Source: Desulfobacterales bacterium | Lineage (GTDB): Bacteria > Desulfobacterota > Desulfobacteria > Desulfobacterales > Desulfobacteraceae | Direction of reading: 5' to 3' | Length of the DNA: 19,759 bases | NCBI GenBank assembly: GCA_022361535.1 | Contig: JAKSAU010000845.1 | Location: 1 to 19,759 of the forward strand | Shown here: positions 1-17,975 of the stretch, one piece after another | Numbering within the stretch: position 1 is the first letter of the stretch | Layout of the letters: every line of letters begins with the position of its first letter | Program-made: the position numbers and the translations under genes | The notes under the pieces: model-generated | What the model was told of the DNA's origin: nothing | What the model saw: only the letters and a program-made list of their open reading frames with translations | Database searches by the model: none

Positions 1-293
1 AGGCCGGTACATACTTCCAAAGATTTGAGCACTCCGGATATCACAGGACATGAGACGTGGGGGATGGTTTTAAAAGATACGTCAAGGACACGGGAATTGA
101 GTTCACCAGTGGCTTTGTCTTTGAACAACTCGGTCATAACATTCAACTCTTCTCCCCCAAGGATTTCGTCCACTTTTTTCCAGTTGGGGCACTGGGTGTC
201 CAGTTGAAAGCAGGCCTTATAGCCTCCCTTATCTTGTGCGTTTACTGTTGTCATAAATCCGCAGATACCCGCAGAAATTTCAACTGTGGTCAT
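1..293 (-). CDS. DUF6951-like small conserved protein (partial, C-terminus off the left edge)
   Basis: This frame is open from ATG 293 (minus strand) to the window edge, giving 97 codons without a stop. An AAAGGA ribosome binding site sits about 8 bases upstream. A nearer upstream ATG (298) is ruled out because it meets a stop after two codons. The protein begins MTTVEISAGICGF, carries a CPNW segment near residue 37, and a CPVISGVLKSLEVCTG segment near the edge. This pattern of an N-terminal GICGF, a mid CP motif and a late CPV...K..EV motif matches my memory of the DUF6951 family found in methanogens and sulfate reducers; I cannot search to confirm it. The conserved cysteines suggest metal or cofactor binding, but no function is established. 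It lies 31 bases after the methyltransferase gene, so it is probably the last visible gene of the riboswitch-controlled operon, which may continue beyond the window. Confidence 0.72.
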   Translation of the reverse strand, partial: MTTVEISAGICGFMTTVNAQDKGGYKACFQLDTQCPNWKKVDEILGGEELNVMTELFKDKATGELNSRVLDVSFKTIPHVSCPVISGVLKSLEVCTG

Positions 294-324
294 GACATAT
301 ATCCTTTATAGATTAATGAACCGT

Positions 325-1200
325 CTATTGATCCAACTTCTGGCGTACCGTATTGATGTCCTCTGGAGTGGTGCCGCAGCAGCCGCCGAGAACCTCTACA
401 CCCAACGCTTTTATCTTCATCAGGTTGTCTGAAAAGAATTGGGGGGATTCCGGATATGTTACGCTTTGATCCGGGCCTGTTTGCGGCAGGCCTGCATTTG
501 GCTGGATAATTATTGGAACGTCAACAGCATTCCTTATCTCGCCTGCAAGCGAAATCATTGTGTCGCTTCCCATGGCACAGTTGGCTCCTACCATGTCAGC
601 CCCTTCATCAACAAGGGCTTTCATACTCTGTTCAGGTGCGTTGCCAAAGATGGTGAAAAACCCTTTAGGGGTCTCTTTAAAGGTCATCGTGCAGGCAACA
701 GGAAGGTCTGTTACCGAGCGGATGGCCTTAATGGCCGTGCATGCAATATTAAGATCAAATATAGTCTCAATAATAAATATATCCGGGCTTTCTTCGGCAA
801 GTATGCTTGCCTGGCTTGTAAAGCAGTCCAGGGCTTCTTCCTTGGATAATGTTCCCATGGGGGAAAGCATTTCACCGGGATCTCCCATGTCAGCGGCAAT
901 GAACTGACCTTTGCCGCAAGCCTTGCGCGCCAGTTTTATCCCAGCCCTGTTGATATCTTCCATGTCTTGCTGGGCTTTCATTTTCGCTAATTTTATGGCA
1001 GACGCACCGAAAGTATTTGCCGTGGCTATATCTGCGCCGGCATCATAATAGTCCTGGTGTATTCCTTGAATATCATCTGGGCGGGTCAGGTTCCATGCTT
1101 CAGGGGCTTCTCCGCCCTCAAGGCCTTTGGCAATGAGTATGGAGCCCATGGCCCCGTCGAAAAGCAGTCCTTTTGTTTTTATCGTATCAAGAATGTCCAT
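325..1200 (-). CDS. homocysteine S-methyltransferase-family protein (stand-alone MetH N-terminal/BHMT domain)
   Basis: The 291-aa protein is a single homocysteine-binding TIM-barrel domain like the first domain of cobalamin-dependent methionine synthase and betaine-homocysteine methyltransferase. Visible motifs are FDGAMGS (14-20), TANTFGAS (60-67), GANCAMGS (205-212) and GGCCGTTPED (272-281); Cys208, Cys274 and Cys275 are the three expected zinc ligands that activate the thiol. It lacks the pterin, B12 and SAM-reactivation domains of full MetH, so it would need a separate corrinoid protein or another methyl donor. The start has an AAGGAG site nine bases upstream. It lies about 100 bases downstream of the dehydrogenase-CobT fusion and inside the B12-riboswitch operon, which favours a corrinoid-linked methyl transfer, to homocysteine or to another thiol; the true acceptor cannot be read from sequence. 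Confidence 0.9.
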   Translation of the reverse strand: MDILDTIKTKGLLFDGAMGSILIAKGLEGGEAPEAWNLTRPDDIQGIHQDYYDAGADIATANTFGASAIKLAKMKAQQDMEDINRAGIKLARKACGKGQFIAADMGDPGEMLSPMGTLSKEEALDCFTSQASILAEESPDIFIIETIFDLNIACTAIKAIRSVTDLPVACTMTFKETPKGFFTIFGNAPEQSMKALVDEGADMVGANCAMGSDTMISLAGEIRNAVDVPIIIQPNAGLPQTGPDQSVTYPESPQFFSDNLMKIKALGVEVLGGCCGTTPEDINTVRQKLDQ

Positions 1201-1299
1201 TGTATTGGTCTCCTTGGAGGGGGTTATATATCAAGGTGATATGCTAACGGGGTTTGACCGGTTTTGCAACAGGTAAGTCAGGCCAATGTGCTTTGAGTT

Positions 1300-3450
1300 T
1301 CATGTACTGGGAGACCGGGATATTTTGGCCTCATCAAAAGATGCCATTTCACTCATTAGCTTGCAGGCCGTTTCGGCAAGATCTATGGCCAGGGCCGCGC
1401 CTGTGCCTTCTCCTAACCGCATGGATAAATCAACCACAGGCTCCAGGCCCATATGGGCCAGTGCTGCTGCCTGGGCTTTCTCCACGGATTGATGGCCGGC
1501 AATAAGATAACCCTGGATATCAGGATTGATAAGATAGGCCACAAGCCCTGCAGCCGTTGAGATAACCCCGTCCAGAACTACAGCACATCCTTTCGAGGCT
1601 GCCGCAAGCGTGGCGCCTGCAATTCCCGCCAATTCAAAACCGCCTATAGTACGCAAAATTTCCAATCCGTTTTTCGGGTCCGGCTGGTGGAAGTTGAGTA
1701 CCCGTTCAATCACCTCAGTCTTGTGGGAAAGTCCTTTGTCATCCACACCAGTACCGCGTCCTGTGGCTTGGGCAGGCGTAATACCCGTGATCGCAGAGAT
1801 AATGGCTGATGCTGAGGTCGTATTGCCGATACCCATTTCACCAAGACCTATGATTTGAACAGGGGATTGGTTTGATGGTGAACCAGAAAAAGATAAAAAG
1901 GCTTTCATCCCGTTTTCTACTGCCTGGATCACTTGGTCTGATGTCATGGCAGGTTCTATCGCCATGTTACGGGTACCAGGGGCAACTTTGGCCCGGATCA
2001 GGTTGGGGTGGGCCAAAAACTCTTTTTCTACGCCCATGTCCACAACCTTCATTTCAATATTATGGTGGCGGCAAAGGACATTTATGGCAGCTCCACCATT
2101 AAGGAAGTTGTCCACCATTTGGCCTGTCACTTCTTTAGGAAAAGCTGATACCCCTTCTTCTGTAATGCCGTGATCCCCAGCAAAAACCAACAGTGCTTTT
2201 TTTTCAATTTTGGGGGTTAGGGTACCTAATACCCTGCACATTTTTACGGCAAGAGGCTCAAGTTTGCCCAAAGCGCCCAGGGGTTTGCTTTTATCATCCA
2301 TTTTGGCCCGGGCGATGGATGCGATGGTTTTGTCCGGTGGCGAGATTGCTGCAAGGATTTCCATGCATAACGCGCTTTTTGATAGGGAAGACCCGTAAGC
2401 TTTCTTCCTGGTTGATTCTTTTGCCATGGGCGTGGACGGCTGCGCTGGTTGAAATTGAGGCATGTCAGATATATTCTTGCCTGAAAAATCCAGGATGTAT
2501 TTCAAATCCCGGCCTGCCAGTACACGGGAAAGAAGAACAGGCGCTTTTTCAGGGGATACGGTCTTTTCAATTAAACGGGTCAGGGAAGGTCCATGGGAAA
2601 GTAAAAAAGGAATTGCCCGTTCCATATCCGATTTTTTCATCCCATAGGCACCACTGATACTTGCCTCTTTATAGTGAATCAGGTTGACCAGGTTGGTTTC
2701 CAGGGTTTCATTTTTTGTGATGCCGGAAAAAAAGGAAATGTGTCCGCCTTTGTCCACCTTGGCAATGGCCTGGCAAAAGGCAATATAATCCGGGCAGGCG
2801 TTGATAACCAAGTCAAACAAGCTTTCATGTGTTTCCTTGACGCACTCTAGTTGCTCTGCCTCAAGGATGGGCATGATTTTTTTAAGTTTAGCTTCGTCTT
2901 TTTCAAGGATCAGCGCGTTGAGTCCCAGGTGGTTCGCATATAGGGCTGTTATCAGTCCCATGGTGCCCCCGCCGTATATGAGCAGCCGTTTGCCTGTTTC
3001 AAGTGGAAGCTTGTCAAACGCATTGATTACACACCCTAAAGGTTCGGCAAAGCATGCAATACCAGCGTCCAGGTGATCCGGAATCGGAATAAGGCTTTCA
3101 GCAGGGATCAGGGCCTTGCTGGCAAATCCTCCGTCATCATGGAATCCTGTGATCCTCATATCATCACAAAGGTTTTCCTTCCCGGACCGGCAGTATTGAC
3201 AGTCGCCGCAGCTTTTTCCAGGCCAGACAATATACCTTTTGCCATTGGCGTCCTGCACAGCCATTTCATGACCGGGTACCCGGGGAAATACAAGATCCCG
3301 GTGGCCCTGTTCCCACATTTTGGCATCGGTTCGACAGATGGCACAAGCCAAAACATCCACCACAATATTGCTGCCACCCGGGTCAGGCTCAAGTGCCGGC
3401 TGATCCAACACTTCGATCTGCCTTAACCCTTTAAGGACCATCTGAATCAT
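1300..3450 (-). CDS. fusion: zinc-dependent alcohol/polyol dehydrogenase domain + CobT-type nicotinate-nucleotide:base phosphoribosyltransferase
   Basis: One 716-aa frame carries two complete enzymes. Residues 1-325 are a medium-chain dehydrogenase: catalytic zinc Cys36, His61-Glu62 and Glu136 (FAEPLG), structural zinc cysteines 81, 84, 87 and 95, and the GGGTMG nucleotide-binding turn at 160-165, nearest to sorbitol/threonine dehydrogenases. A Pro/Ser/Lys-rich linker (about 326-360) joins it to a full-length CobT domain (about 361-700): KPLGALGKLE (389-398), AGDHGI (424-429), GLGEMGIGNTT (535-545), GRGTGVDDKG (564-573), DGVIST (627-632) and LGEGTGAA, with Glu681 as the expected catalytic base. 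CobT makes alpha-ribazole phosphate, the lower-ligand precursor of cobamides, from nicotinate mononucleotide and a base. The start ATG overlaps the preceding stop (ATGA), so translation is coupled to the 67-aa gene. The dehydrogenase substrate is unknown. No frameshift or stop breaks the junction. Confidence 0.93.
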   Translation of the reverse strand: MIQMVLKGLRQIEVLDQPALEPDPGGSNIVVDVLACAICRTDAKMWEQGHRDLVFPRVPGHEMAVQDANGKRYIVWPGKSCGDCQYCRSGKENLCDDMRITGFHDDGGFASKALIPAESLIPIPDHLDAGIACFAEPLGCVINAFDKLPLETGKRLLIYGGGTMGLITALYANHLGLNALILEKDEAKLKKIMPILEAEQLECVKETHESLFDLVINACPDYIAFCQAIAKVDKGGHISFFSGITKNETLETNLVNLIHYKEASISGAYGMKKSDMERAIPFLLSHGPSLTRLIEKTVSPEKAPVLLSRVLAGRDLKYILDFSGKNISDMPQFQPAQPSTPMAKESTRKKAYGSSLSKSALCMEILAAISPPDKTIASIARAKMDDKSKPLGALGKLEPLAVKMCRVLGTLTPKIEKKALLVFAGDHGITEEGVSAFPKEVTGQMVDNFLNGGAAINVLCRHHNIEMKVVDMGVEKEFLAHPNLIRAKVAPGTRNMAIEPAMTSDQVIQAVENGMKAFLSFSGSPSNQSPVQIIGLGEMGIGNTTSASAIISAITGITPAQATGRGTGVDDKGLSHKTEVIERVLNFHQPDPKNGLEILRTIGGFELAGIAGATLAAASKGCAVVLDGVISTAAGLVAYLINPDIQGYLIAGHQSVEKAQAAALAHMGLEPVVDLSMRLGEGTGAALAIDLAETACKLMSEMASFDEAKISRSPST

Positions 3451-3650
3451 TGTAAATCCTCTTCTGTGAGAATCAGTTTTTTGACGTGAACTTGGCTGAG
3501 ACCTTCAGCTTTGGCATCCCTTGCATATACATTAACCTGATCCAGTTGATCCATGGGATAAACAGATGCTTTATCCAGGTTGACCACAAGAAAGGCTCCG
3601 TCTTTTATCCGCAGGTACCTTTTCCCGGTTTTGATGATTAACAGCTCCAT
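3447..3650 (-). CDS. small conserved-looking protein of unknown function (67 aa)
   Basis: I do not recognise this 67-aa protein. It starts at ATG 3650 behind an AAAGGAT site and its stop overlaps the start of the dehydrogenase-CobT fusion by the ATGA arrangement, which argues for real, coupled translation. The sequence is MELLIIKTGKRYLRIKDG followed by a mixed alternation of hydrophobic and charged residues (FLVVNLDKASVYP, then VHVKKLILTEEDLQ), suggesting a compact mainly beta fold. There is no signal peptide, membrane segment or cysteine. Position and coupling suggest an accessory subunit or a factor acting with the dehydrogenase-CobT protein, but that is inference from context only. Confidence 0.8.
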   Translation of the reverse strand: MELLIIKTGKRYLRIKDGAFLVVNLDKASVYPMDQLDQVNVYARDAKAEGLSQVHVKKLILTEEDLQ

Positions 3651-3709
3651 GGATTATCCTTTTTCTTTTTGCACTGTTGGTATCTTGTGCATTGCCATTT
3701 CCTTGCGAC

Positions 3710-4816
3710 TTATACCAGCGCATGGAGTCTTTTCAGTCCTTTTTCCGAGTTGGTATTCTGGGCAGCAACCCATTTTTCAAGGGTGTTAAAGGCAGTTTGT
3801 TTTTCAAGGAGCACAGCGGCCTTTTGGATACCCTGTTCCAGGGTGTTGGATTTTCCGGCTGCTAGAAAAATGAGACCAGCATTAAGGAGGATTGCATCTT
3901 TTCTTGGACCGTTTTCCTTGTTTGCCATAAGGCCTGCAAAACGGACTGTTTCGTTTTCAAGGTCAGCTTCCGGTTTCAGTGCGTCAGCAGAGGGGGCTGC
4001 AAGCCCCAATGCTTTAGGATTAATGGTGAATTCTTTGATATCTCTTTTTCCTGTGGTGAGATCGGTCTTGATTTGTGCACAATGGGTGGTACCGCACACC
4101 GATGCTTCATCCATGCCAAGACCATTGGTGCCTTCAACTTCTCCGTGAAGAACGATGGCACTGTGGTAGCCGATTTCCCGCATTACCCGTGCCACAGGCA
4201 TGATCATTTCCTTGGCATAAACACCACGGACACCAATGGCTGGCAGGGCCGGATTAGCAAGGGAGGCCGCGATGTTCAGGGTAGAACCGAAAAAAATCTG
4301 GGAAAGGATTCGTCCCAGGGCATTTGGGTGGATATGTGGGCTCATACCGTTGAACAGGCCAAGGCCGCATGTATTTATACTCTCGGCAACAGTCTGGGCC
4401 GTGCATTCGACATCCACACCCAAAGCTTCCGCCATATCTACTGTGCCGCAGACAGAAGTGATGGCACGAGCCCCGTGGCGGGCCATGGGCACATCCCCGG
4501 CTGCTGCAATGATAGATGCTGCAGTGCTGATATTAAAGGTTTTAAAGGTGTCCATGCCTGTACCGGAGTTTTCTGCAACAGCTAAGTCGATATTGACCTT
4601 TGTGGTGTCAAGTTCATAAATGGCTTCCCAGGCACCGGCAACTTCTTCGGCAGTCTCGCCTTTGGCGGTGAGGGCGGATAAAAATGCTCCCTGCTGCAGA
4701 TCTGTGGTGTCGTTGTTCAGGACGGTTGAAAATGCATGATATGCTTCGTCGCGGGTCAAGCTTTCTTTATTGATCAGGCGGGTTATCAACGCACCAAAGG
4801 CTTTGTTTTTTTCCAC
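3710..4816 (-). CDS. TrpD-like phosphoribosyltransferase paralogue (glycosyltransferase family 3 fold), first gene of the B12-riboswitch operon
   Basis: The 368-aa protein (GTG start) follows the anthranilate phosphoribosyltransferase fold throughout: an alpha-helical N-terminal domain with LTRDEA and QQGAFLSAL, the phosphoribosyl-pyrophosphate loop SGTGMDTFKTFNIST (about 84-98), HGARAITSVCGTVD (114-127), a DEAS acidic pair for metal (about 236-239), and RKDAILLNAG near the C-terminus (305-314). Two signatures differ from true TrpD: GTGGD is GTGMD, and the segment normally reading RRELG..T.FNLLGPL.NP is ILSQIFFGSTLNIAASLANP (about 170-189), removing an arginine involved in anthranilate binding. 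No trp genes are nearby. GTG 4816 is preferred over ATG 4849 because an AGGAG site lies ten bases before the GTG and inside the longer frame. Placement directly after a cobalamin riboswitch and upstream of a CobT domain suggests a base other than anthranilate; this is inference. Confidence 0.85.
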   Translation of the reverse strand: MEKNKAFGALITRLINKESLTRDEAYHAFSTVLNNDTTDLQQGAFLSALTAKGETAEEVAGAWEAIYELDTTKVNIDLAVAENSGTGMDTFKTFNISTAASIIAAAGDVPMARHGARAITSVCGTVDMAEALGVDVECTAQTVAESINTCGLGLFNGMSPHIHPNALGRILSQIFFGSTLNIAASLANPALPAIGVRGVYAKEMIMPVARVMREIGYHSAIVLHGEVEGTNGLGMDEASVCGTTHCAQIKTDLTTGKRDIKEFTINPKALGLAAPSADALKPEADLENETVRFAGLMANKENGPRKDAILLNAGLIFLAAGKSNTLEQGIQKAAVLLEKQTAFNTLEKWVAAQNTNSEKGLKRLHALV

Positions 4817-4879
4817 TGCAATATATCTCCTCTTGAAATAGCAATTCAACAGGATCGATTCCAGCGGGTATCCTTTGGT

Positions 4880-5090
4880 TCATTGTGTCCAGGCAGGCTT
4901 TCCGGCTGACGGATCATTCCTTGGTCTGCGCCTTCCCCTTTGTCCTTTCCAATTCTCATCAGGCCGGGCCAAAGAGTGGCGATGTGCAGGCTTAAGTCCC
5001 CAATCACGGCATTGGCTGGTATGCAACGGAGTTTCACCGTTTTTCCTATTACCCCTTTCCTGGTGTTTCCAGATCCGGGCACCTTGACAG
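4880..5090 (-). promoter_or_regulatory. cobalamin (AdoCbl-class) riboswitch
   Basis: Read on the minus strand, the leader shows the family's conserved blocks in order: AAGGTGCC (5079-5086), the GGAAAAACGGTGAAACTCCG core block (about 5028-5047), GCCACT (about 4975-4980), GGGGAAGGCGCAGACC (about 4923-4938), and a B12 box reading GTCAGCCGGAAAGCCTGCC at about 4892-4910. It starts just after a strong minus-strand promoter and ends about 65 bases before the GTG start of the TrpD-like gene. No GC hairpin plus U-run follows the aptamer, so control of translation initiation is more likely than transcription termination, though the sequestering helix was not resolved. It should repress the downstream operon when cobalamin is plentiful. 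Confidence 0.93.
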
Positions 5091-5100
5091 CGTGACAGGC

Positions 5101-5130
5101 AATATAAAGGATAAGTTGTTGAATTGTCAA
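5101..5130 (-). promoter_or_regulatory. sigma70-type promoter for the riboswitch operon
   Basis: On the minus strand TTGACA (5125-5130) is separated by 18 bases from TATATT (5101-5106). Transcription would begin near 5094, immediately before the first conserved block of the riboswitch, which agrees with its role. Confidence 0.82.
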
Positions 5131-5187
5131 TACTAAAGCATGGGTGCTAAGGCAAGGGTCGGGCAAGCCAGTCTTTGGATTTTTCTC

Positions 5188-5216
5188 TTGACAAAACCAA
5201 TAACAAGATCTATTTA
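5188..5216 (+). promoter_or_regulatory. sigma70-type promoter for tetR-qmoC-like operon
   Basis: TTGACA (5188-5193) and TATTTA (5211-5216) are spaced by 17 bases on the plus strand. The last base of the -10 is the first base of the 16-bp palindrome, so a repressor bound there would block polymerase. It diverges from the riboswitch promoter about 60 bases away. Confidence 0.75.
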
Positions 5217-5231
5217 GTGAACATGTTCACT
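5216..5231. promoter_or_regulatory. probable TetR-family operator (perfect 16-bp palindrome)
   Basis: AGTGAACATGTTCACT is a perfect inverted repeat with no spacer, overlapping the -10 and transcription start region of the adjacent TetR gene and lying 31 bases before its start codon. Size and symmetry are typical of TetR-family operators, and autorepression is the simplest reading. Confidence 0.75.
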
Positions 5232-5262
5232 GATTGGTATGTGTTATTTTAAAAGGAGAAAT

Positions 5263-5868
5263 ATGGATCAGCCAAAAGGAAACAGGCGCCAGGTACAAAA
5301 AGCAGAAACAAGGGCTGTCATCCTTGAAAGTGCAAGACATTTTTTTGCAACCAAAGAGTATGACAAAGTGACCATAAGAGCAGTTGCAGCCCATGCAGGA
5401 ATCGGCTTAGGCACTATTTACAAGCATTTCCCAAACAAGCTGTCTATGCTGGCTGCTGCCTTTTTTGATGATTTGAAATTCATATATCAGGATGCCATTG
5501 ACACGGTACCTGACAATGTGTCTTTCAAGCAACAGTTTGTCCATATTTCAAAACGGTATTTTTCCTTCTATACATCTCATTCCACCCTTTCCAGGGCATA
5601 TTTGAGCCGCTTGTTCTTTTATGAGCGTGAATCCCTGGATCAGATCAATGCCTATGATGATGCCTATGCAAATAAAATTACCGAATTGATCCAAGCTGCC
5701 CAGGACAGGGGTGAAATCAGCAAAGAAAAAGACAGCCAGGTTCTGGCTCTGTCTGTCATGTCCAACTACTTTTTTGTCCTTGCCAATTTCTTTTTAAGGG
5801 ATCATCAAGCAGATCCTGACCAATTGGCCGGCATGCTTGAGATGCTCATTGACCAAACTCTATATTGA
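5263..5868 (+). CDS. TetR/AcrR-family transcriptional regulator
   Basis: This 201-aa protein has the standard TetR architecture: an N-terminal three-helix DNA-binding domain with TIRAVAAHAGIGLGTIYKHFPNK at about residues 37-59 (helix-turn-helix with the family's GTIY.HF signature), followed by an all-helical ligand-binding domain with no strong similarity I can name. ATG 5263 is chosen over the in-frame ATG 5239 because an AAGGAG site (5253-5258) immediately precedes it. A perfect palindrome over its promoter suggests autorepression. It is 30 bases upstream of, and co-directional with, the qmoC-like gene, so that gene is the likely regulated partner. The effector is unknown; possibilities for anaerobes include acyl-CoA thioesters or hydrophobic compounds, but nothing in the sequence decides this. 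Confidence 0.93.
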   Translation: MDQPKGNRRQVQKAETRAVILESARHFFATKEYDKVTIRAVAAHAGIGLGTIYKHFPNKLSMLAAAFFDDLKFIYQDAIDTVPDNVSFKQQFVHISKRYFSFYTSHSTLSRAYLSRLFFYERESLDQINAYDDAYANKITELIQAAQDRGEISKEKDSQVLALSVMSNYFFVLANFFLRDHQADPDQLAGMLEMLIDQTLY

Positions 5869-5898
5869 TCCAGACCTTTTATTGAAAAGGAGATTGTG

Positions 5899-7032
5899 AT
5901 GACTGATTCTGCATTTATTGAACCTGATCTTGATTTTATTTCCCAGCTTAAATCCGGGGCCGGGCCAAACCTGAAAAAATGCTACCAATGTGCCACCTGT
6001 TCAGTTGTATGCAGCTTATCCCACGACGATAACCCCTTTCCAAGAAAAGAAATGATCCATGCGGCTTGGGGGTTAAAGGAAAGGCTTGTTGCTAACCCGG
6101 ACATCTGGCTGTGCTATAACTGTGGAGACTGCTCCCAATATTGTCCGAGAGATGCCCGGCCAGGTGATGTGCTGGGAACGCTCAGAACCATGGCCATCCG
6201 CAAATATTCAAAGCCTGCCATTTTTCACAAACTTGTGGGAGATATTAAGATGCTGCCGCTTTTGTTTATTATTCCTGCGGTCATCATTCTGGGGCTGGGG
6301 CTCGCGACCGGCTTGATGAATCCCGTGCCTGGTGACGGTCCCATTGTTTTTGCCAATTTTTTTCCGGTCCCATTGATTGAGATGATTTTTCTGCCGCTGT
6401 CTGCGGCCGTGGGATTGGTTTTTTTGTTTGGCATCCGGCGCTTTATTAAAGATATGCAGGCTACTTATTCGGCTTTAGGCAAGCCTGTTCCTGAAACGCT
6501 AGATATAAAAGAGTTTCTTATCACCATGGTGAAAAGGTTGCCTGAAATCATCCGCCACCAAAGGTTTTCAACCTGCTCGGAAAATAAGGGGCGCAAAGTA
6601 TCCCACATGATGGTCTCTTTTTCTTTTGTCAGCCTGGCGTTTGTGGCAGGTGCCTTTGTCTTTGCCCTTTATGTGCTCAACAGCCATGGACCGTATTCCC
6701 AGCTTAATCCGGTCAAGATCCTGGCAAATGTGTCGGGTATTGCTCTGATTGCAGGCAGCCTGATTTTGATCCGGGAACGCAAGAATGCAGAGAAGCAGGC
6801 CAGCAGTTATTTTGATTGGTATCTTTTAGGACTGGCATTGTTTTTAGGAATCACAGGCATGCTGACCCAGTGGCTCAGGCTTTTGGATATCCCCTGGGCA
6901 GCATATTCAATGTATTTTATCCACTTATTGTTTGCCTTTAACATGATGGCGTTCCTGCCTTATACCAAGTTGGCCCACCTGGTGTACAGGACGGTTGCCC
7001 AAGGGTATTACCACTACGTCAACAAAGACTGA
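5899..7032 (+). CDS. QmoC/HdrC-like membrane iron-sulfur cytochrome b subunit (orphan)
   Basis: The 377-aa protein combines a cytoplasmic double [4Fe-4S] ferredoxin domain and a membrane cytochrome b domain. The cluster ligands are CYQCATCSVVC (Cys28, 31, 34, 38) and CYNCGDCSQYC (Cys72, 75, 78, 82). About six hydrophobic segments follow (near 118-138, 160-180, 237-258, 275-291, 308-326, 336-354), with His219, His236, His342 and His360 as candidate haem ligands. This layout matches QmoC, the quinone-interacting subunit that passes electrons to APS reductase in sulfate reducers, and the NarI/HdrE-type family. In a normal qmo operon qmoA and qmoB lie immediately upstream; here there is only a TetR regulator, so the soluble partner is unknown. 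ATG 5899 follows AAGGAG by six bases; a GTG one codon earlier is also possible. Confidence 0.85.
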   Translation: MTDSAFIEPDLDFISQLKSGAGPNLKKCYQCATCSVVCSLSHDDNPFPRKEMIHAAWGLKERLVANPDIWLCYNCGDCSQYCPRDARPGDVLGTLRTMAIRKYSKPAIFHKLVGDIKMLPLLFIIPAVIILGLGLATGLMNPVPGDGPIVFANFFPVPLIEMIFLPLSAAVGLVFLFGIRRFIKDMQATYSALGKPVPETLDIKEFLITMVKRLPEIIRHQRFSTCSENKGRKVSHMMVSFSFVSLAFVAGAFVFALYVLNSHGPYSQLNPVKILANVSGIALIAGSLILIRERKNAEKQASSYFDWYLLGLALFLGITGMLTQWLRLLDIPWAAYSMYFIHLLFAFNMMAFLPYTKLAHLVYRTVAQGYYHYVNKD

Positions 7033-7040
7033 TTGATTTT

Positions 7041-7064
7041 GGGGCGGTTATCCCCGGCCGCCCC
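7041..7064. terminator. GC hairpin between convergent genes (weak terminator candidate)
   Basis: GGGGCGG (7041-7047) pairs with CCGCCCC (7058-7064) around a ten-base loop, just after the stop of the qmoC-like gene and overlapping the end of the rhomboid gene. There is no T-run on the 3' side in either direction, so termination by this hairpin alone is doubtful. Confidence 0.35.
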
Positions 7065-7593
7065 GGAAGAAACCGTAGGCTGCACCCATAAACCCGCCTG
7101 CCAGATGGCTGAACTGGGATACCTGGTCAATTTTAAGGATGGCTGCGACTTCAGATCCGATGAATATGACAGCAACCAGGATAAAGGTTAAAGGGATCTC
7201 TTTTGCCCTGAAATTGGAAAAGGAACTGAGCAAAATCATCATAAAGGCAAGGCCGCTTCCCCCGATCAAAGTGGTAGAGAAAACTGCAGCATTGACAAGA
7301 GCCGTGGTTGCGGCCGTCACAACCATCATTTCAAGCAGCTTCCAGGATCGGTATTTTTCTTCAAGCAAAGGGCCGACTAAAAGAATTATCATGAGATTAC
7401 CCATAAGGTGTTGCCAGTTTGCATGGGCCAGGACGTGGGTTACAAGGCGCAGGTAAAACTGTGGCTGGGAAAAAGAAAGATAGCTTGGCGAGGACAGGCT
7501 CAACCCTAAGGTTTTGCTTACAGGCAGCATCAGGCATACAATGGCTAAAATGGCGTAGGTCAGGATAACAGGGGCATTATATCTAATTTTCAT
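7048..7593 (-). CDS. rhomboid-family intramembrane serine protease
   Basis: The 181-aa protein is a compact six-helix rhomboid. Catalytic features are visible: HANWQHLMGN (His57, His62, Asn66) in the second helix, GGSG with nucleophile Ser113, and FSHLAGG with His163 as the catalytic histidine. There is no extra domain beyond the core. Members cleave single-pass membrane proteins within the lipid bilayer; the substrate here is unknown. ATG 7593 has an AAAGGAT site about seven bases upstream and a good promoter at 7624-7652. It converges with the qmoC-like gene with 15 bases between stops, and diverges from the HD-domain gene. Confidence 0.9.
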   Translation of the reverse strand: MKIRYNAPVILTYAILAIVCLMLPVSKTLGLSLSSPSYLSFSQPQFYLRLVTHVLAHANWQHLMGNLMIILLVGPLLEEKYRSWKLLEMMVVTAATTALVNAAVFSTTLIGGSGLAFMMILLSSFSNFRAKEIPLTFILVAVIFIGSEVAAILKIDQVSQFSHLAGGFMGAAYGFFRGGRG

Positions 7594-13390: not shown

Positions 13391-16300
13391 ATGGAGATCC
13401 AAACCGACGGACCTGTTTCGGCAGGGACCTATATTATCAACCAGGCCAAGCGCGTTAATCTGAACCCCAGCCTTTTGTATGAAGCGGTAATTGACCTTTC
13501 CTCAGAAGGATTGATCACCGCCAACTGTATCAACCGTGCAGCCGGTATTCTTCTCAACGATCTTGGACTGCCCCACTATTTTTTCGAAACCATCACTAAA
13601 GATTCCCTTAAAAACATTCTGGCTTCAATTGCCAAAAGTTTGAAGATTCAAGGAGAAAAGGTGGAGCTTTCTTCCTGGGTGGCGGATATTGACTTTGACC
13701 TTAACCAGGGCCGCCAGGTCCAGCGGGTTAGAATCGCAACCAAGGAAACCCGGGATGCAGTTGAGGCCCTCTTGGATAACCAGTTGGTTGGTCATCGCAG
13801 AGAGTATTACTATAACCCTGAAAAAGAGTATTACACCTATATGTTCCGCCCGGAAACCGTTGCGGATTTCAATACGGACCGGTTTTCAGGCTCCCGCTTT
13901 CTTTTTGGGCTGGATCAAAACTACATCCAGACCCCACGGTTGACCCGCAACAGGTATGAACAATTTTTGGAAACCATTTCCAATTCCGTGACCCCATTAA
14001 TTGAGGTGTTTAACCTGTCTGATATCGGCGAGATCCGGTTCATGTTCAACTCGGATTTTGCCCGTCCCCAGCTTGCAGTACTTCGTCAGCTGTTTGCAGA
14101 CCACGGCCTGGTTATCACCCGGGCATACTGGGAGCCATATTCAACTGAAGCAAAGGTCCCCTCATCCATCTGCTCGCTTTATGTACAAGGGGAGTTGGCC
14201 AGGTCCAAAGAGCAGGCGTTGATAGATGACCTTAGGTCTTTTTTAAGTTTTGCCGTATCTGATGTGACACGGTTGTATATAAACGGTCAGCTTGATTTTA
14301 AAGAAATGCTGTTTGCAGGAAATGCCATTGATTTCACCCATATGTTTATCTACAGGGAACGGGGCAACCAGAGTGACAGGGACATCATGGAAAGCCTGGA
14401 AAATGCTGACCACAAAGCGGCTTTTGCTTCAAGGATTCATGAGTCCAATAAGTTTACCTATGTGTCCCGGACCATCATGGAAACAGCCTGTGAACATCCT
14501 GACCTGCTCAAATTTCTGTTCCGGCTTTTCGACCTGAAGTTCAACCCGGCAGGACCTGGTGAGTTGACTGCTGCTGATCTTGAAAAAGAATGGGACTCCT
14601 TTGAACGGATGCTGGCTGTCCGGTTTATGGATTTTCCTCTTGGCCAGGACATCTTTTCCTTTATGTTTAAATTCATTCCCGGAACGTTAAAGACCAATTT
14701 TTATAAATCGGAGAAACGGTCCTTTGCATTTAGGATGGACCAGCAGATTCTTGATCCTCTGGTATTCGAGCAATTCGTTTTTGGTATTTTCTTTGCCAAT
14801 GGCCACTATGCCTGTGGTACCCACTTGCGGGCGGATGATATTGCCCGCGGCGGTTTGAGGATGATCCGGGTTACTCCGGGCAACCATGCTGCAGAGCTGG
14901 ACAATGCCGTATTGCTCAATTATGCTCTGGGTCCCAAAGCACAGCGTCTCAAACACAAGGATATTTGTGAGAGCGGCTCCAAAGGCGTTGTGGTACCCCA
15001 TGCCCTGTATGCCTCTTATGGTATGGAAGCATTGTACGATTATACAGAAGGCATCATGGATTTGATGCTGCCTGATGCCAGTGTCAAGGATCATTATGGG
15101 AAACCTGAAATGGTATTCTTCGGACCGGACGAAGGAACTGCCCCGCTGATGGATGCGGTGGCTTTCAGGGCCAAAGAAAGAGGATATGCACACTGGCGCA
15201 CCATTACCACAGGTAAAAGTTTTGGTATCCCCCATGATACTTACGGAATTCTGGACAACGGGGATATTTTCGGACTGTCTGCCCATGATGCAAAAACCAC
15301 TGAGCTTGCCGTCAATGGTGAGTCAAAGGCTGTCACTGCAGATATGGACGAGATCTGGAATCAGATCGGCGGACGGGTAGACATCAGCGGTATGACCACC
15401 ACATCAGTCATGGGTGCATTCAGGACCTTGATCGATCATTATGGTGTTAAAGAAGAAGATCTCAACCTGATGATGACAGGAGGCCCCGACGGAGACCTGG
15501 GAGCCAATGAAATCCAGTGTTACAAAGGCAAGGTCTGCCTGATCATTGACGGCGGTTCCATTCTTTTTGACCCGGACGGGCTGGACAAAGAAGCATTGAT
15601 GAAGATCGGGTTTATGCGTCACACAGCGCCACGGGTTAACTCTTTGGGGTTCCCGGTAGAAAAGCTTGGTAAAAACGGCTTCCAGGTGCCGCTTAAAGGA
15701 AAAAATATCACGCTTCCCGACGGCACTTTGGTGGAGGACGGGGCTGTCTTTCACAGGAATTTCATTACAGATCCGGCCAACCGTAAATATATTGAGCAGG
15801 CCAATATCCAGGCATTTATACCTTGCGGCGGATTTAAAGATACCATCAACCATGGAAACGTCCGGGCCTTTACCGGCCTGTTCCAGGAACTGCGTTTCAT
15901 TGTCGAAGGTGCCAATGTCTTTTTCGATGATGCAGCAAGGCGGTATATTGCTTCATCAACGCAGATCAAACAGATCAAGGACAGTTCTGCCAACAAGGGC
16001 GGTGTGTTCTCGTCTGCCGTGGCAGAGGTGCTGACTGCCTTCTTGTTTGAGAACGATTATGAGCAGCGGCTTTTGGAAGACGTGGATACACGGTGGGCTT
16101 TGATTCGGGATATCATGAATTTGGTTTCAACCTATGCAGCAGCTGAGACCAAGATGCTTATCAAAATTCACGAAGCTGATCCTGAAGTACCGCTCTTTAT
16201 ATTGTCTGAAAAAACCAGCGAACAGATTTTTGCCTTCCAGGGTATTGTTGCCGATCACCTGGATGAGGTGACAGGAAATGAAAACCTGTTATGGGAAGTT

Positions 16301-16522
16301 TTGAAAACCTATATACCGGAAGTTTTGGTAAATAATTTGGGTAGAGAAGCGATTTTAAAAATAATGAATGCAGAAAAGTTATCTGCTTACAGGGATGCCA
16401 TCATTACCAAGAAAATGGCTTCCCTGGCATTCTATGAACATGGTACGGACTGGGACGCCTATGCCCAAAAGGCTGCTTCGGATTTTACCGGGGCCATGTC
16501 TGCCTTGTTCAATGTCAATTAA
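13391..16522 (+). CDS. large NAD-dependent glutamate dehydrogenase (about 115-kDa class)
   Basis: The 1043-aa protein oxidises glutamate to 2-oxoglutarate and ammonium with NAD. The catalytic half shows ADDIARGGLRMIRV (about 480), GSKGVVVP (about 526), FFGPDEGTAPLMDAVAFRA (about 576), GKSFGIPHDTYG (about 610), the nucleotide-binding TGGPDGDLGANEI (about 694) and EGANVFF (about 838). The first roughly 430 residues are an N-terminal extension of the large GDH classes with probable regulatory function. At 1043 residues it fits the roughly 115-kDa class rather than the 180-kDa (about 1600-residue) class. ATG 13391 follows AGGAG (13381-13385) by five bases. It stands first in a two-gene GDH cluster, 103 bases before gdhA, behind a long AT-rich leader. 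The NAD preference and catabolic direction come from family knowledge. Confidence 0.93.
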   Translation: MEIQTDGPVSAGTYIINQAKRVNLNPSLLYEAVIDLSSEGLITANCINRAAGILLNDLGLPHYFFETITKDSLKNILASIAKSLKIQGEKVELSSWVADIDFDLNQGRQVQRVRIATKETRDAVEALLDNQLVGHRREYYYNPEKEYYTYMFRPETVADFNTDRFSGSRFLFGLDQNYIQTPRLTRNRYEQFLETISNSVTPLIEVFNLSDIGEIRFMFNSDFARPQLAVLRQLFADHGLVITRAYWEPYSTEAKVPSSICSLYVQGELARSKEQALIDDLRSFLSFAVSDVTRLYINGQLDFKEMLFAGNAIDFTHMFIYRERGNQSDRDIMESLENADHKAAFASRIHESNKFTYVSRTIMETACEHPDLLKFLFRLFDLKFNPAGPGELTAADLEKEWDSFERMLAVRFMDFPLGQDIFSFMFKFIPGTLKTNFYKSEKRSFAFRMDQQILDPLVFEQFVFGIFFANGHYACGTHLRADDIARGGLRMIRVTPGNHAAELDNAVLLNYALGPKAQRLKHKDICESGSKGVVVPHALYASYGMEALYDYTEGIMDLMLPDASVKDHYGKPEMVFFGPDEGTAPLMDAVAFRAKERGYAHWRTITTGKSFGIPHDTYGILDNGDIFGLSAHDAKTTELAVNGESKAVTADMDEIWNQIGGRVDISGMTTTSVMGAFRTLIDHYGVKEEDLNLMMTGGPDGDLGANEIQCYKGKVCLIIDGGSILFDPDGLDKEALMKIGFMRHTAPRVNSLGFPVEKLGKNGFQVPLKGKNITLPDGTLVEDGAVFHRNFITDPANRKYIEQANIQAFIPCGGFKDTINHGNVRAFTGLFQELRFIVEGANVFFDDAARRYIASSTQIKQIKDSSANKGGVFSSAVAEVLTAFLFENDYEQRLLEDVDTRWALIRDIMNLVSTYAAAETKMLIKIHEADPEVPLFILSEKTSEQIFAFQGIVADHLDEVTGNENLLWEVLKTYIPEVLVNNLGREAILKIMNAEKLSAYRDAIITKKMASLAFYEHGTDWDAYAQKAASDFTGAMSALFNVN

Positions 16523-16544
16523 TTGAAACAACCATACAATGAAT

Positions 16545-16569
16545 GCCGCCCCGTGGGCTATGGGGCGGC
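16545..16569 (+). terminator. strong GC hairpin between the two GDH genes (attenuator or processing site)
   Basis: GCCGCCCC (16545-16552) pairs with GGGGCGGC (16562-16569) around a nine-base loop, 23 bases after the NAD-GDH stop. The 3' side reads TGTTCATAAAC, not a U-run, so full termination is unlikely; partial termination or protection of the upstream mRNA is more plausible. No separate promoter is obvious for gdhA. Confidence 0.5.
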
Positions 16570-16625
16570 TGTTCATAAACAATTGGGGTAGTCCTTATCT
16601 TTTAACAGGAAAGAGGAGTAGAAAA

Positions 16626-17975
16626 ATGGGTACAATTATGGACATTGTTAATGCAAGAGATCCCTATGAAAAGGAATTCCACCAGGCGGTCCACGAGGTG
16701 GTGGAATCTGTAAAGCCTGTTCTGGATAAAAATCCGGAATACCGCCATGCCGGGATCATGGAGCGGATCGTTGAGCCCGAACGGGTGATCCAGTTCAGGG
16801 TACCCTGGGTGGATGATCAGGGTAAGGTCCAGGTCAACCGCGGATTCAGAATTGAAATGAATTCCGCCATCGGTCCTTATAAAGGGGGCCTTCGGTTCCA
16901 TCCTTCGGTAAACCTCTCCATCCTCAAATTCCTGGCGTTTGAACAGGTATTTAAAAATGCTTTGACCACTTTGCCCATCGGCGGTGGAAAAGGCGGATCT
17001 GATTTTGATCCAAAAGGAAAATCTGATTTTGAAGTCATGCGGTTTTGCCAGAGTTTTATGGCCGAGCTTTTCCGCCACATTGGCCAGGATACGGACGTAC
17101 CGGCAGGAGATATCGGGGTTGGCGGCCGTGAGATCGGGTATCTTTTTGGTATGTATAAAAAACTGAGAAATGAATTTACAGGTGTGTTAACAGGCAAAAG
17201 CCTGAACTGGGGCGGCAGCCTTATCCGGCCTGAAGCAACCGGCTACGGTGCTGTTTTCTTTGCCGATGAAATGCTGGCAACCAAGAATGAGAGCCTAAAA
17301 GATAAAGTGTGTTTGGTTTCAGGTTCGGGCAACGTCGCCCAATATACAACAGAGAAAATCAACCAGTTGGGCGGCAAGGTGGTTACGCTGTCCGACTCCA
17401 CCGGCTATATCTATGATGAAGAAGGTATTGACGGAGACAAACTGCAATGGGTTATGTACCTGAAAAATGTTAAGCGCGGGCGGATCAAGGAGTATGCAGA
17501 TAAGTACTCAACAGCCGTATATACTGCCCTTGACGGCTCAGAAGATCACAACCCGCTATGGAACCATAAGGCCCACTGCGCATTCCCGTCTGCCACCCAG
17601 AACGAGATTAATGAGAAAGATGCACAGAACCTGGTGAATAATGGCGTCTATGTGATCAGTGAAGGCGCCAATATGCCTACCACACCTGACGGCATCGAGG
17701 TTTTCCTGGAAAACAAGATACTCTATGCACCGGGCAAGGCAGCCAATGCCGGCGGAGTAGCTGTATCAGGACTTGAAATGTCTCAGAACTCAATGCGGAT
17801 CAAATGGACCAGGGAAGAAGTGGAAGCCAAACTCAAAGGTATCATGCAAAGCATTCACAGTGCATGCATAGAAGCTTCAGAAGAATACGGCACCCCTGGC
17901 AATTATGTAAATGGTGCCAATATTGCCGGATTTGTCAAAGTTGCGGATGCCATGATGGATCAGGGTATTGTATAG
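16626..17975 (+). CDS. gdhA: hexameric glutamate dehydrogenase, GdhA type (probably NADP-dependent)
   Basis: The 449-aa protein has the length of the small hexameric GDH family and its signatures: GPYKGGLRFHPSVN (about 83-96), PIGGGKGGSDFDPKGKSD (about 117-134, catalytic lysine), PAGDIGVGGREIG (about 159-171, catalytic aspartate), GSGNVAQ (about 234-240) and EGANMPTTPD (about 346-355). The residues after the second strand of the Rossmann fold (TLSDSTGYIYDEEGID) resemble NADP-dependent enterobacterial GdhA, so reductive amination of 2-oxoglutarate for ammonium assimilation is likely. ATG 16626 is preferred over the in-frame ATG 16539 because GAGGAG (16613-16618) precedes it by seven bases and the extra 29 residues overlap a GC hairpin and resemble no GDH N-terminus. 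It is followed by a bidirectional terminator. Confidence 0.95.
   Translation: MGTIMDIVNARDPYEKEFHQAVHEVVESVKPVLDKNPEYRHAGIMERIVEPERVIQFRVPWVDDQGKVQVNRGFRIEMNSAIGPYKGGLRFHPSVNLSILKFLAFEQVFKNALTTLPIGGGKGGSDFDPKGKSDFEVMRFCQSFMAELFRHIGQDTDVPAGDIGVGGREIGYLFGMYKKLRNEFTGVLTGKSLNWGGSLIRPEATGYGAVFFADEMLATKNESLKDKVCLVSGSGNVAQYTTEKINQLGGKVVTLSDSTGYIYDEEGIDGDKLQWVMYLKNVKRGRIKEYADKYSTAVYTALDGSEDHNPLWNHKAHCAFPSATQNEINEKDAQNLVNNGVYVISEGANMPTTPDGIEVFLENKILYAPGKAANAGGVAVSGLEMSQNSMRIKWTREEVEAKLKGIMQSIHSACIEASEEYGTPGNYVNGANIAGFVKVADAMMDQGIV

Follow-up and report, generated by a model that had tools for sequence, protein, structure and literature searches.

Positions 1-19,759 of contig JAKSAU010000845.1 of the Desulfobacterales bacterium assembly GCA_022361535.1 (the window) carry a cobalamin riboswitch followed by three minus-strand genes. 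They encode a TrpD-like phosphoribosyltransferase, a 67-aa protein (p67) and a zinc-type dehydrogenase fused to CobT, and are referred to here as unit A. Unit A is probably a B12-repressed module that supplies or prepares the lower ligand of a cobamide. This reading is favoured because the cobamide-assembly genes linked to unit A and its relatives point to that step. The module is most likely undescribed so far; no paper assigning the pair of dehydrogenase and TrpD-like protein was found in the literature searched, which leaves most subscription journals outside. Two further genes, encoding a homocysteine S-methyltransferase domain and a DUF6951 protein, lie downstream and form a separate unit B.

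A promoter, a cobalamin riboswitch and five minus-strand genes had been described in the original prediction, and all were recovered. The promoter-like match TTGACA-18-TATATT (5130-5101, minus strand) is sigma-70-like and agrees with 11 of 12 consensus bases. It is the top of six motif matches in 1-5400, where shuffled sequence averages 6.2, and the scan on its own proves nothing. The site is taken as a promoter because it abuts the riboswitch, the aptamer beginning where the match ends. The aptamer (RF00174; 5101-4875, minus strand) is complete, covering model positions 1-189, and scores 68.3 bits (E 2.9e-15) against a gathering score of 31.5. The TrpD-like gene (4816-3710, minus strand) encodes 368 aa from a GTG at 4816; this start, with AGGAG in front of it, is preferred to the possible TTG start at 4849 given in the list of open reading frames. 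The p67 gene (3650-3447, minus strand) overlaps the 716-aa fusion gene (3450-1300, minus strand) by 4 bp. Within the fusion, the dehydrogenase half spans 3450-2416 and the CobT half 2361-1300. Unit B comprises the stand-alone methyltransferase domain (1200-325, minus strand; S-methyl_trans, 210 bits) and the DUF6951 protein (293-3, minus strand; PF22263, 80.3 bits), of which 97 aa are visible in a frame open at the window edge. The spacings are 58 bp from the aptamer to the GTG start and then 59, -4, 99 and 31 bp between successive genes. The idea of one tightly spaced five-gene unit has accordingly been narrowed, with only the first three genes packed behind the riboswitch. The predicted lack of classical corrin-ring genes was confirmed by a Pfam scan of 17 window proteins, none of which was such an enzyme.

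Unit A has a conserved core, made up of the dehydrogenase and the TrpD-like protein. The best 80 of 123 TrpD-like relatives were examined as loci. In 77 of the 80, the two genes sit side by side in the same orientation with no more than 979 bp between them; in the remaining three, the contig runs out 133 bp or less from the TrpD match. The order of the pair varies, with trpD first in 46 loci and the dehydrogenase gene first in 31. Carriers of the pair include Desulfobacterota, Desulfosporosinus, Alkalibacter and other Bacillota, Nitrospirota, a metagenome-assembled genome (MAG) of Spirochaetes and archaea, three of the latter being titled Methanomassiliicoccus or Methanomassiliicoccales. A figure legend has placed trpD and a dehydrogenase (DH) alongside cbiZ and corrin genes in Antarctic Chlorobium (PMC8620254), which is perhaps the same pair in Chlorobiota. 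The p67 protein matches no Pfam family, is predicted to fold as beta-beta-beta-beta-alpha-beta and has 203 relatives at E 0.001. Proteins resembling it, some recognised by eye, follow the pair in several Bacillota.

Rfam searches covered 54 loci, and in 41 of them the leading gene of the pair has a cobalamin riboswitch immediately in front of it, no more than about 320 bp away. These 54 loci all carry the TrpD-like gene, include the window and a variant locus, L131, and contain no archaeal locus. Unit A is predicted to be repressed by B12.

The TrpD-like protein shares its fold and phosphoribosyl pyrophosphate (PRPP) motifs with TrpD and forms a group of its own. It scores 222.1 bits with TIGR01245 (cut-off 199.05). 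Its structural model has a predicted local distance difference test score of 93.1, and the best 50 Foldseek matches listed are all anthranilate phosphoribosyltransferases, the best being 1kgz (template modelling scores 0.79/0.90). In a tree, 26 family members were separated from seven canonical TrpDs with 100/100 support. The PRPP motifs GTGxD, N-x-S-[ST], [KR]HG (RHA in L047) and DE are retained, and the signature of the window protein is GTGMD plus RHGAR, canonical GTGGD having become GTGMD. The acceptor side has been rebuilt. The canonical KHGN reads [RK]HG[AS], with Asn in 7/7 canonical rows and Ala or Ser in 19/19 family rows. The Arg that all seven canonical rows have some 10 residues ahead of FN is Leu in all 19 family rows, and near this column the family alignment has lost two residues and gained FNG-x-S. 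Titles in the PDB include anthranilate phosphoribosyltransferase variants N138A and R193L; by our alignment, N138 and R193 presumably match these two columns. Both anthranilate-binding residues would then be replaced in the TrpD-like protein.

A role in the tryptophan pathway does not fit these proteins. Of 148 Desulfobacterota genomes, seven have a match above 340 bits, and all seven keep another that scores 219-232 bits, as canonical TrpDs do; the five of these other copies that were examined read KHGNR. Canonical TrpD is also kept beside the pair in L129. The TrpD-like protein is a paralogue of TrpD. With the PRPP site kept and the acceptor side rebuilt, the natural reading is a PRPP transferase with an acceptor other than anthranilate. 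The tree leaves out L139 and L131. The latter holds a TrpD-like variant of 39% identity (6333-7448) with GTGAD and without the dehydrogenase, adjoining a 737-aa protein with a molybdopterin-oxidoreductase-like start, and it perhaps represents another TrpD-derived family.

The dehydrogenase half (ADH_N, 53.9 bits) is of the zinc-type medium-chain kind. It shares with zinc medium-chain dehydrogenases, L-threonine 3-dehydrogenase among them, the ADH_N fold, the catalytic-type Cys, the GHE motif and the four-Cys motif; the Cys and both motifs are present in seven aligned rows (of 22 sequences). The L-threonine 3-dehydrogenase model TIGR00692 gives 86.9 bits against a cut-off of 458.35, and no dehydrogenase model among the matches listed reaches its cut-off.

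The CobT half is clearly assigned, with 420.7 bits to PF02277 and 422.5 bits to TIGR03160 against a curated cut-off of 319.3. It retains the Glu of the LGEGxGA motif, reading rlgegtgaal where ArsA has rlgegigasm and the Thermus enzyme lgegtgavl. This residue is one that we take to be E317 of the Salmonella enzyme. E317 has been described as the general base of CobT (PMC9561151). The fused CobT is therefore predicted to be a nicotinate mononucleotide (NaMN):base phosphoribosyltransferase that would convert NaMN to an alpha-ribotide. The fusion is not peculiar to the window. Dehydrogenase and CobT share one open frame in 31 of the 80 loci, and a protein search with the dehydrogenase part returned 463 relatives of suitable length, with PF02277 in 118 of the 120 matches listed. 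In a tree with 11 unfused CobTs, two of which have very long branches, the 19 fused CobT domains form one clade (Shimodaira-Hasegawa-like approximate likelihood ratio test support 97).

Genomes with the fusion often hold another CobT. A second one was found in 18/25 fusion genomes, a count that combines two sets. In the first, of 53 pair genomes, 20 have CobT in a frame of more than 700 aa; 13 of these have a further CobT match (two as fragments only) and seven do not. In the second, two CobTs are present in 5/5 fusion genomes and one in 9/9 non-fusion relatives. Six fusion genomes (G001, G002, G003, G005, G009 and G013) have a ThiC-like gene no more than about 360 bp from the further CobT, or from one of them. 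In the four of these that were examined (L085, L082, L083 and L087), the ThiC paralogues form their own clade and stand behind a cobalamin riboswitch, as does the one in L154; a thiamine pyrophosphate riboswitch goes with the ordinary ThiC of L083. Because of this separate clade and the cobalamin riboswitch, the paralogue beside cobT is taken for BzaF. No BzaF-named model matched these paralogues, which NCBIfam scores as ThiC. Several fusion genomes would thus also hold a riboswitch-bzaF-type-cobT operon. In genome G362, which we infer to be Desulforapulum autotrophicum HRM2, both modules appear to be present, each led by a riboswitch (L153 and L154).

The neighbourhood of the pair was annotated at chosen loci rather than at all 80, and it connects the pair to cobamide assembly in several ways. 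Locus L145 has, on a single strand, a riboswitch, the dehydrogenase gene, the TrpD-like gene, two ThiC paralogues (nearest BzaA and BzaB), CobT, an energy-coupling factor (ECF) S component and an AIRS-like protein. The S component has a likeness to CblT and the AIRS-like protein to CblS, which has an AIRS fold. The two genes are followed by CobT in L130 and by CobT and CobS in L129, which adjoins a trp operon, identified by eye, that contains a separate TrpD. In L063, a riboswitch-led pair is accompanied by a second riboswitch with CobU and CobT. The pair is also found among corrin genes. Locus L043 holds CbiG, CbiJ, CobO, the TrpD-like protein, p67, the fusion, a second CobT and CobQ, and L072 has CbiD and HemB upstream and a tetrapyrrole methylase downstream. 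The record of L043 is titled Salinivirgaceae and its genes group with Desulfobacterota; the locus may be misbinned.

In L058, the dehydrogenase and TrpD-like genes are followed, with an 8-bp overlap, by CbiZ (confirmed by Pfam) and then by BtuB- and BtuC-like genes (by eye) flanking a Peripla_BP_2 (BtuF-like) protein, with a divergent CobQ-aminotransferase fusion whose CobD part was named by eye. This type of operon looks like corrinoid uptake and remodelling. In the Geobacteraceae loci L058, L060, L066 and L070, CbiZ has an apparent signal peptide and its gene overlaps the TrpD-like gene.

The pair also keeps company with cobamide-assembly genes at the level of whole genomes. Of 53 pair genomes (G053 among them), 48 have CobT (PF02277); CobS is present in 29 of 30. 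Of the five genomes without PF02277, four are archaea with the archaeal CobT and the fifth, G190, is without CobS as well. In the Bacillota sample, CobT is found in 10/11 pair genomes versus 200/387 others (one-sided Fisher p 0.009, rising to 0.026 when two genomes known beforehand are left out; neither value is corrected for kinship).

These observations are consistent with the following sequence of events. When corrinoid is scarce, the riboswitch would permit expression of the operon. The TrpD-like protein would use PRPP to phosphoribosylate an aromatic or heterocyclic nitrogen compound other than anthranilate, and the dehydrogenase would carry out a redox step before or after this transfer. 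Together they may yield a base or precursor other than, or beyond, 5-hydroxybenzimidazole, the product of BzaF. The p67 protein could be an accessory subunit. The fused CobT would combine the base with NaMN to give the alpha-ribotide, which CobS would then join to the corrin ring. The fusion of dehydrogenase and CobT suggests that the base is handed over inside one protein.

Unit A shares with the bzaF-cobT and bzaAB-cobT(-bzaCDE) operons a cobalamin riboswitch, CobT, occurrence in anaerobes and, as proposed here, the supply of a lower ligand, and in L145 the pair stands on one strand behind one riboswitch with bzaA/bzaB-type genes and cobT. Unlike the bza operons, the window has no ThiC-type gene (neither BzaF nor BzaA plus BzaB among the 17 proteins); it has a dehydrogenase and a member of a PRPP-transferase family, and its CobT is fused to the dehydrogenase. 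The ArsAB system, which makes phenolyl cobamides, consists of tandem CobTs, and the window has one PF02277 domain. ArsA is the top PDB match of the fused CobT, at 241.2 bits versus 239.7 for the Thermus CobT, a difference that amounts to a tie. A second CobT immediately downstream of the fusion is seen in just one mapped locus, L043, and this copy may be an ArsB-like partner. Very divergent second CobT homologues lie near the fusion at L128 (11974-13074) and L043 (13340-14356), with end branches of 4.5 and 4.9.

A more specific version of lower-ligand supply can be put forward tentatively. Unit A may represent an oxygen-independent lower-ligand pathway that is not started by ThiC and that uses a TrpD-derived PRPP transferase, a zinc dehydrogenase and a small subunit. 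It is conceivable, if somewhat doubtful, that a base is built or refashioned in this way and passed to the fused CobT, beside a bzaF-cobT operon in several genomes. The choice of cobamide might then, just as tentatively, be set by corrinoid supply. Such a pathway could be a missing source for ligands without known genes, for example 5-methylbenzimidazole, which has reportedly been found in Desulfobacterium autotrophicum, a species whose genome would contain both modules (L153 and L154). The lower ligand determines which organisms can use a cobamide. The pair, named in the databases consulted as anthranilate phosphoribosyltransferase and CobT or dehydrogenase, would escape comparative predictions of lower ligands, for which bluB, bza, arsAB and salvage genes are listed as the basis (PMC6461909). 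It occurs in culturable, named species, among them Desulforapulum autotrophicum, Desulfospira joergensenii, Trichlorobacter thiogenes and Alkalibacter mobilis.

Several observations weigh against lower-ligand supply. We could devise no route by which a dehydrogenase and a PRPP transferase would yield one of the known lower ligands. Beyond TrpD, dehydrogenase/CobT and p67, no cluster of neighbours exceeds 11 of the 80 loci, and no cobamide genes were recognised beside the archaeal pairs. The ThiC paralogues of L145 score 582 and 631 bits, below the BzaB cut-off of 700. The number of ThiC-like genes per pair genome ranges from three in G690, which include bzaA/bzaB-type genes and occur with a BzaD, down to zero in G589, a genome in one contig; the pair is therefore not tied to one ligand. 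The His of GHE is replaced by Glu in L058, L072, L078 and L080. No CobT besides the fused one was found in 7/25 fusion genomes (G004, G006, G010, G072, G123, G178 and G184), many fusion genomes being MAGs, and a second, private CobT is therefore not general. A riboswitch is missing directly upstream at 13/54 loci (L035, L036, L023, L024, L031, L066, L067, L070, L075, L043, L128, L131 and L072). These include L031, with less than 300 bp of upstream sequence, L070, with one riboswitch downstream of the pair, and L072, with an adenosylcobalamin riboswitch about 7 kb upstream. The TrpD-like gene is also rare, being found in 7/148 Desulfobacterota (scores above 340 bits), in 11/398 Bacillota and in 4/118 genomes of the archaeal phylum, sets that contain their own centre genomes. 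The seven include G053, with the 39% variant lacking signature and dehydrogenase, and leave uncounted a 288-bit match in G171; the 11 include a partial gene in G596 and a gene interrupted by a stop in G698.

The main rivals to lower-ligand supply are a role on the donor side of CobT and a role in salvage. On the donor side, the TrpD-like protein would use PRPP to turn the nicotinate released by CobT back into NaMN or into a different beta-ribotide donor, with the dehydrogenase as accessory redox enzyme. This would suit the fusion and operon linkage with CobT, as well as a protein that has kept its PRPP site and lost the anthranilate site. It is improbable, since it leaves the dehydrogenase, the constant partner, without a job, and the 200/387 pair-less Bacillota with CobT indicate that CobT is independent of the pair. 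In salvage or remodelling, the module would free or convert the bases of foreign corrinoids or ribosides and make no base de novo. CbiZ, a corrinoid-remodelling amidohydrolase, and the BtuF-like gene in L058 agree with this, as does the CblT/CblS-like pair in L145. CblT and CblS have been assigned to uptake and phosphorylation of alpha-ribazole (PMC6461909). Salvage is nevertheless an unlikely function for a pair whose neighbours include genes of de novo corrin synthesis (L043, L072) and bzaA/bzaB-type genes (L145).

Two other explanations have still less in their favour. Replacements that spare B12, such as MetE and class III ribonucleotide reductase, are known, and the pair might likewise replace some B12-dependent enzyme under B12 shortage. 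The riboswitch would fit, and several Bacillota have two- or three-gene operons with no other recognised cobamide gene. The CobT fusion, the cobamide-assembly operons and the near confinement of the pair to genomes with CobT and CobS make such a bypass very unlikely. The original prediction had joined all five window genes in one pathway that couples a cobamide lower ligand to methyl transfer to a thiol. Its lower-ligand part is upheld by the conserved pair, by the riboswitch frequency and by the cobamide neighbours at annotated loci. The search for the five-gene order in other genomes found that it is not unique to the window. The full order recurs in G330 (L121/L102, with p67 as P0275) and also in G327 (L155), where a spacer of some 1.5 kb separates the methyltransferase gene from the fusion gene and the contig stops within the TrpD-like gene. 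The coupling to thiol methylation is not supported. Neither methyltransferase nor DUF6951 appeared in the examined flanks, often short, of the 80 TrpD-like loci. Ten of 11 loci with methyltransferase and DUF6951 have no fusion within about 1.5 kb (in L105 of G327 it lies just beyond), and L125 has TetR, QmoC and the methyltransferase-DUF6951 pair together without unit A. A single five-gene pathway is thus the least probable of the readings considered here, and the five genes are two units.

Unit B is a recurrent pair of its own, mostly found away from unit A. DUF6951 adjoins the methyltransferase in 11 of 20 loci examined (L101-L120, about 1.5 kb on each side). Fusion and methyltransferase lie far apart, on another contig or at hundreds of kb, in nine fusion genomes (G001, G002, G004, G005, G013, G180, G357, G362 and G363). 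In the family of G002 (Desulfospira), 45/86 genomes have methyltransferase matches; 32 of these carry a stand-alone relative (47-67% identity), and the other 13 match only through a long MetH-like open reading frame (34-35%). The methyltransferase resembles the N-terminal domain of MetH, and its PDB relatives are mostly methionine synthases. It is a stand-alone first domain without folate and corrinoid domains, and scores 146.3 with the MetH model TIGR02082 against a cut-off of 1010.85. No paper on DUF6951 turned up in the literature searched.

Other assignments for the pair were considered and set aside. The TrpD-like protein is not BzaD, which is a radical-SAM-type methyltransferase. Replacement of CobT by the TrpD-like protein in archaea was suggested by the absence of PF02277 in 4/4 archaeal pair genomes tested, but the archaeal CobT model TIGR00303 matches 7/7 archaea tested. 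Substitution for CobD, CbiJ or CobU is countered by CbiJ beside the pair in L043 and CobU in L063, and for CobD also by the CobQ-aminotransferase fusion near the pair in L058. The idea that the bza pathway requires the pair was dropped, since there are pair genomes, several in number, with no ThiC-like gene or just one. BluB was above cut-off in none of 36 genomes, with weak nitroreductase-type matches below cut-off in 35.

Elsewhere in the window, a TetR-type regulator (5239-5868, plus strand) is divergent from unit A and is followed by a QmoC-like membrane Fe-S protein (5896-7032, plus strand; NF038018, 443.8 bits). Positions 13391-17975 hold a tandem of two different glutamate dehydrogenase-family genes encoding 1043 aa and 478 aa.

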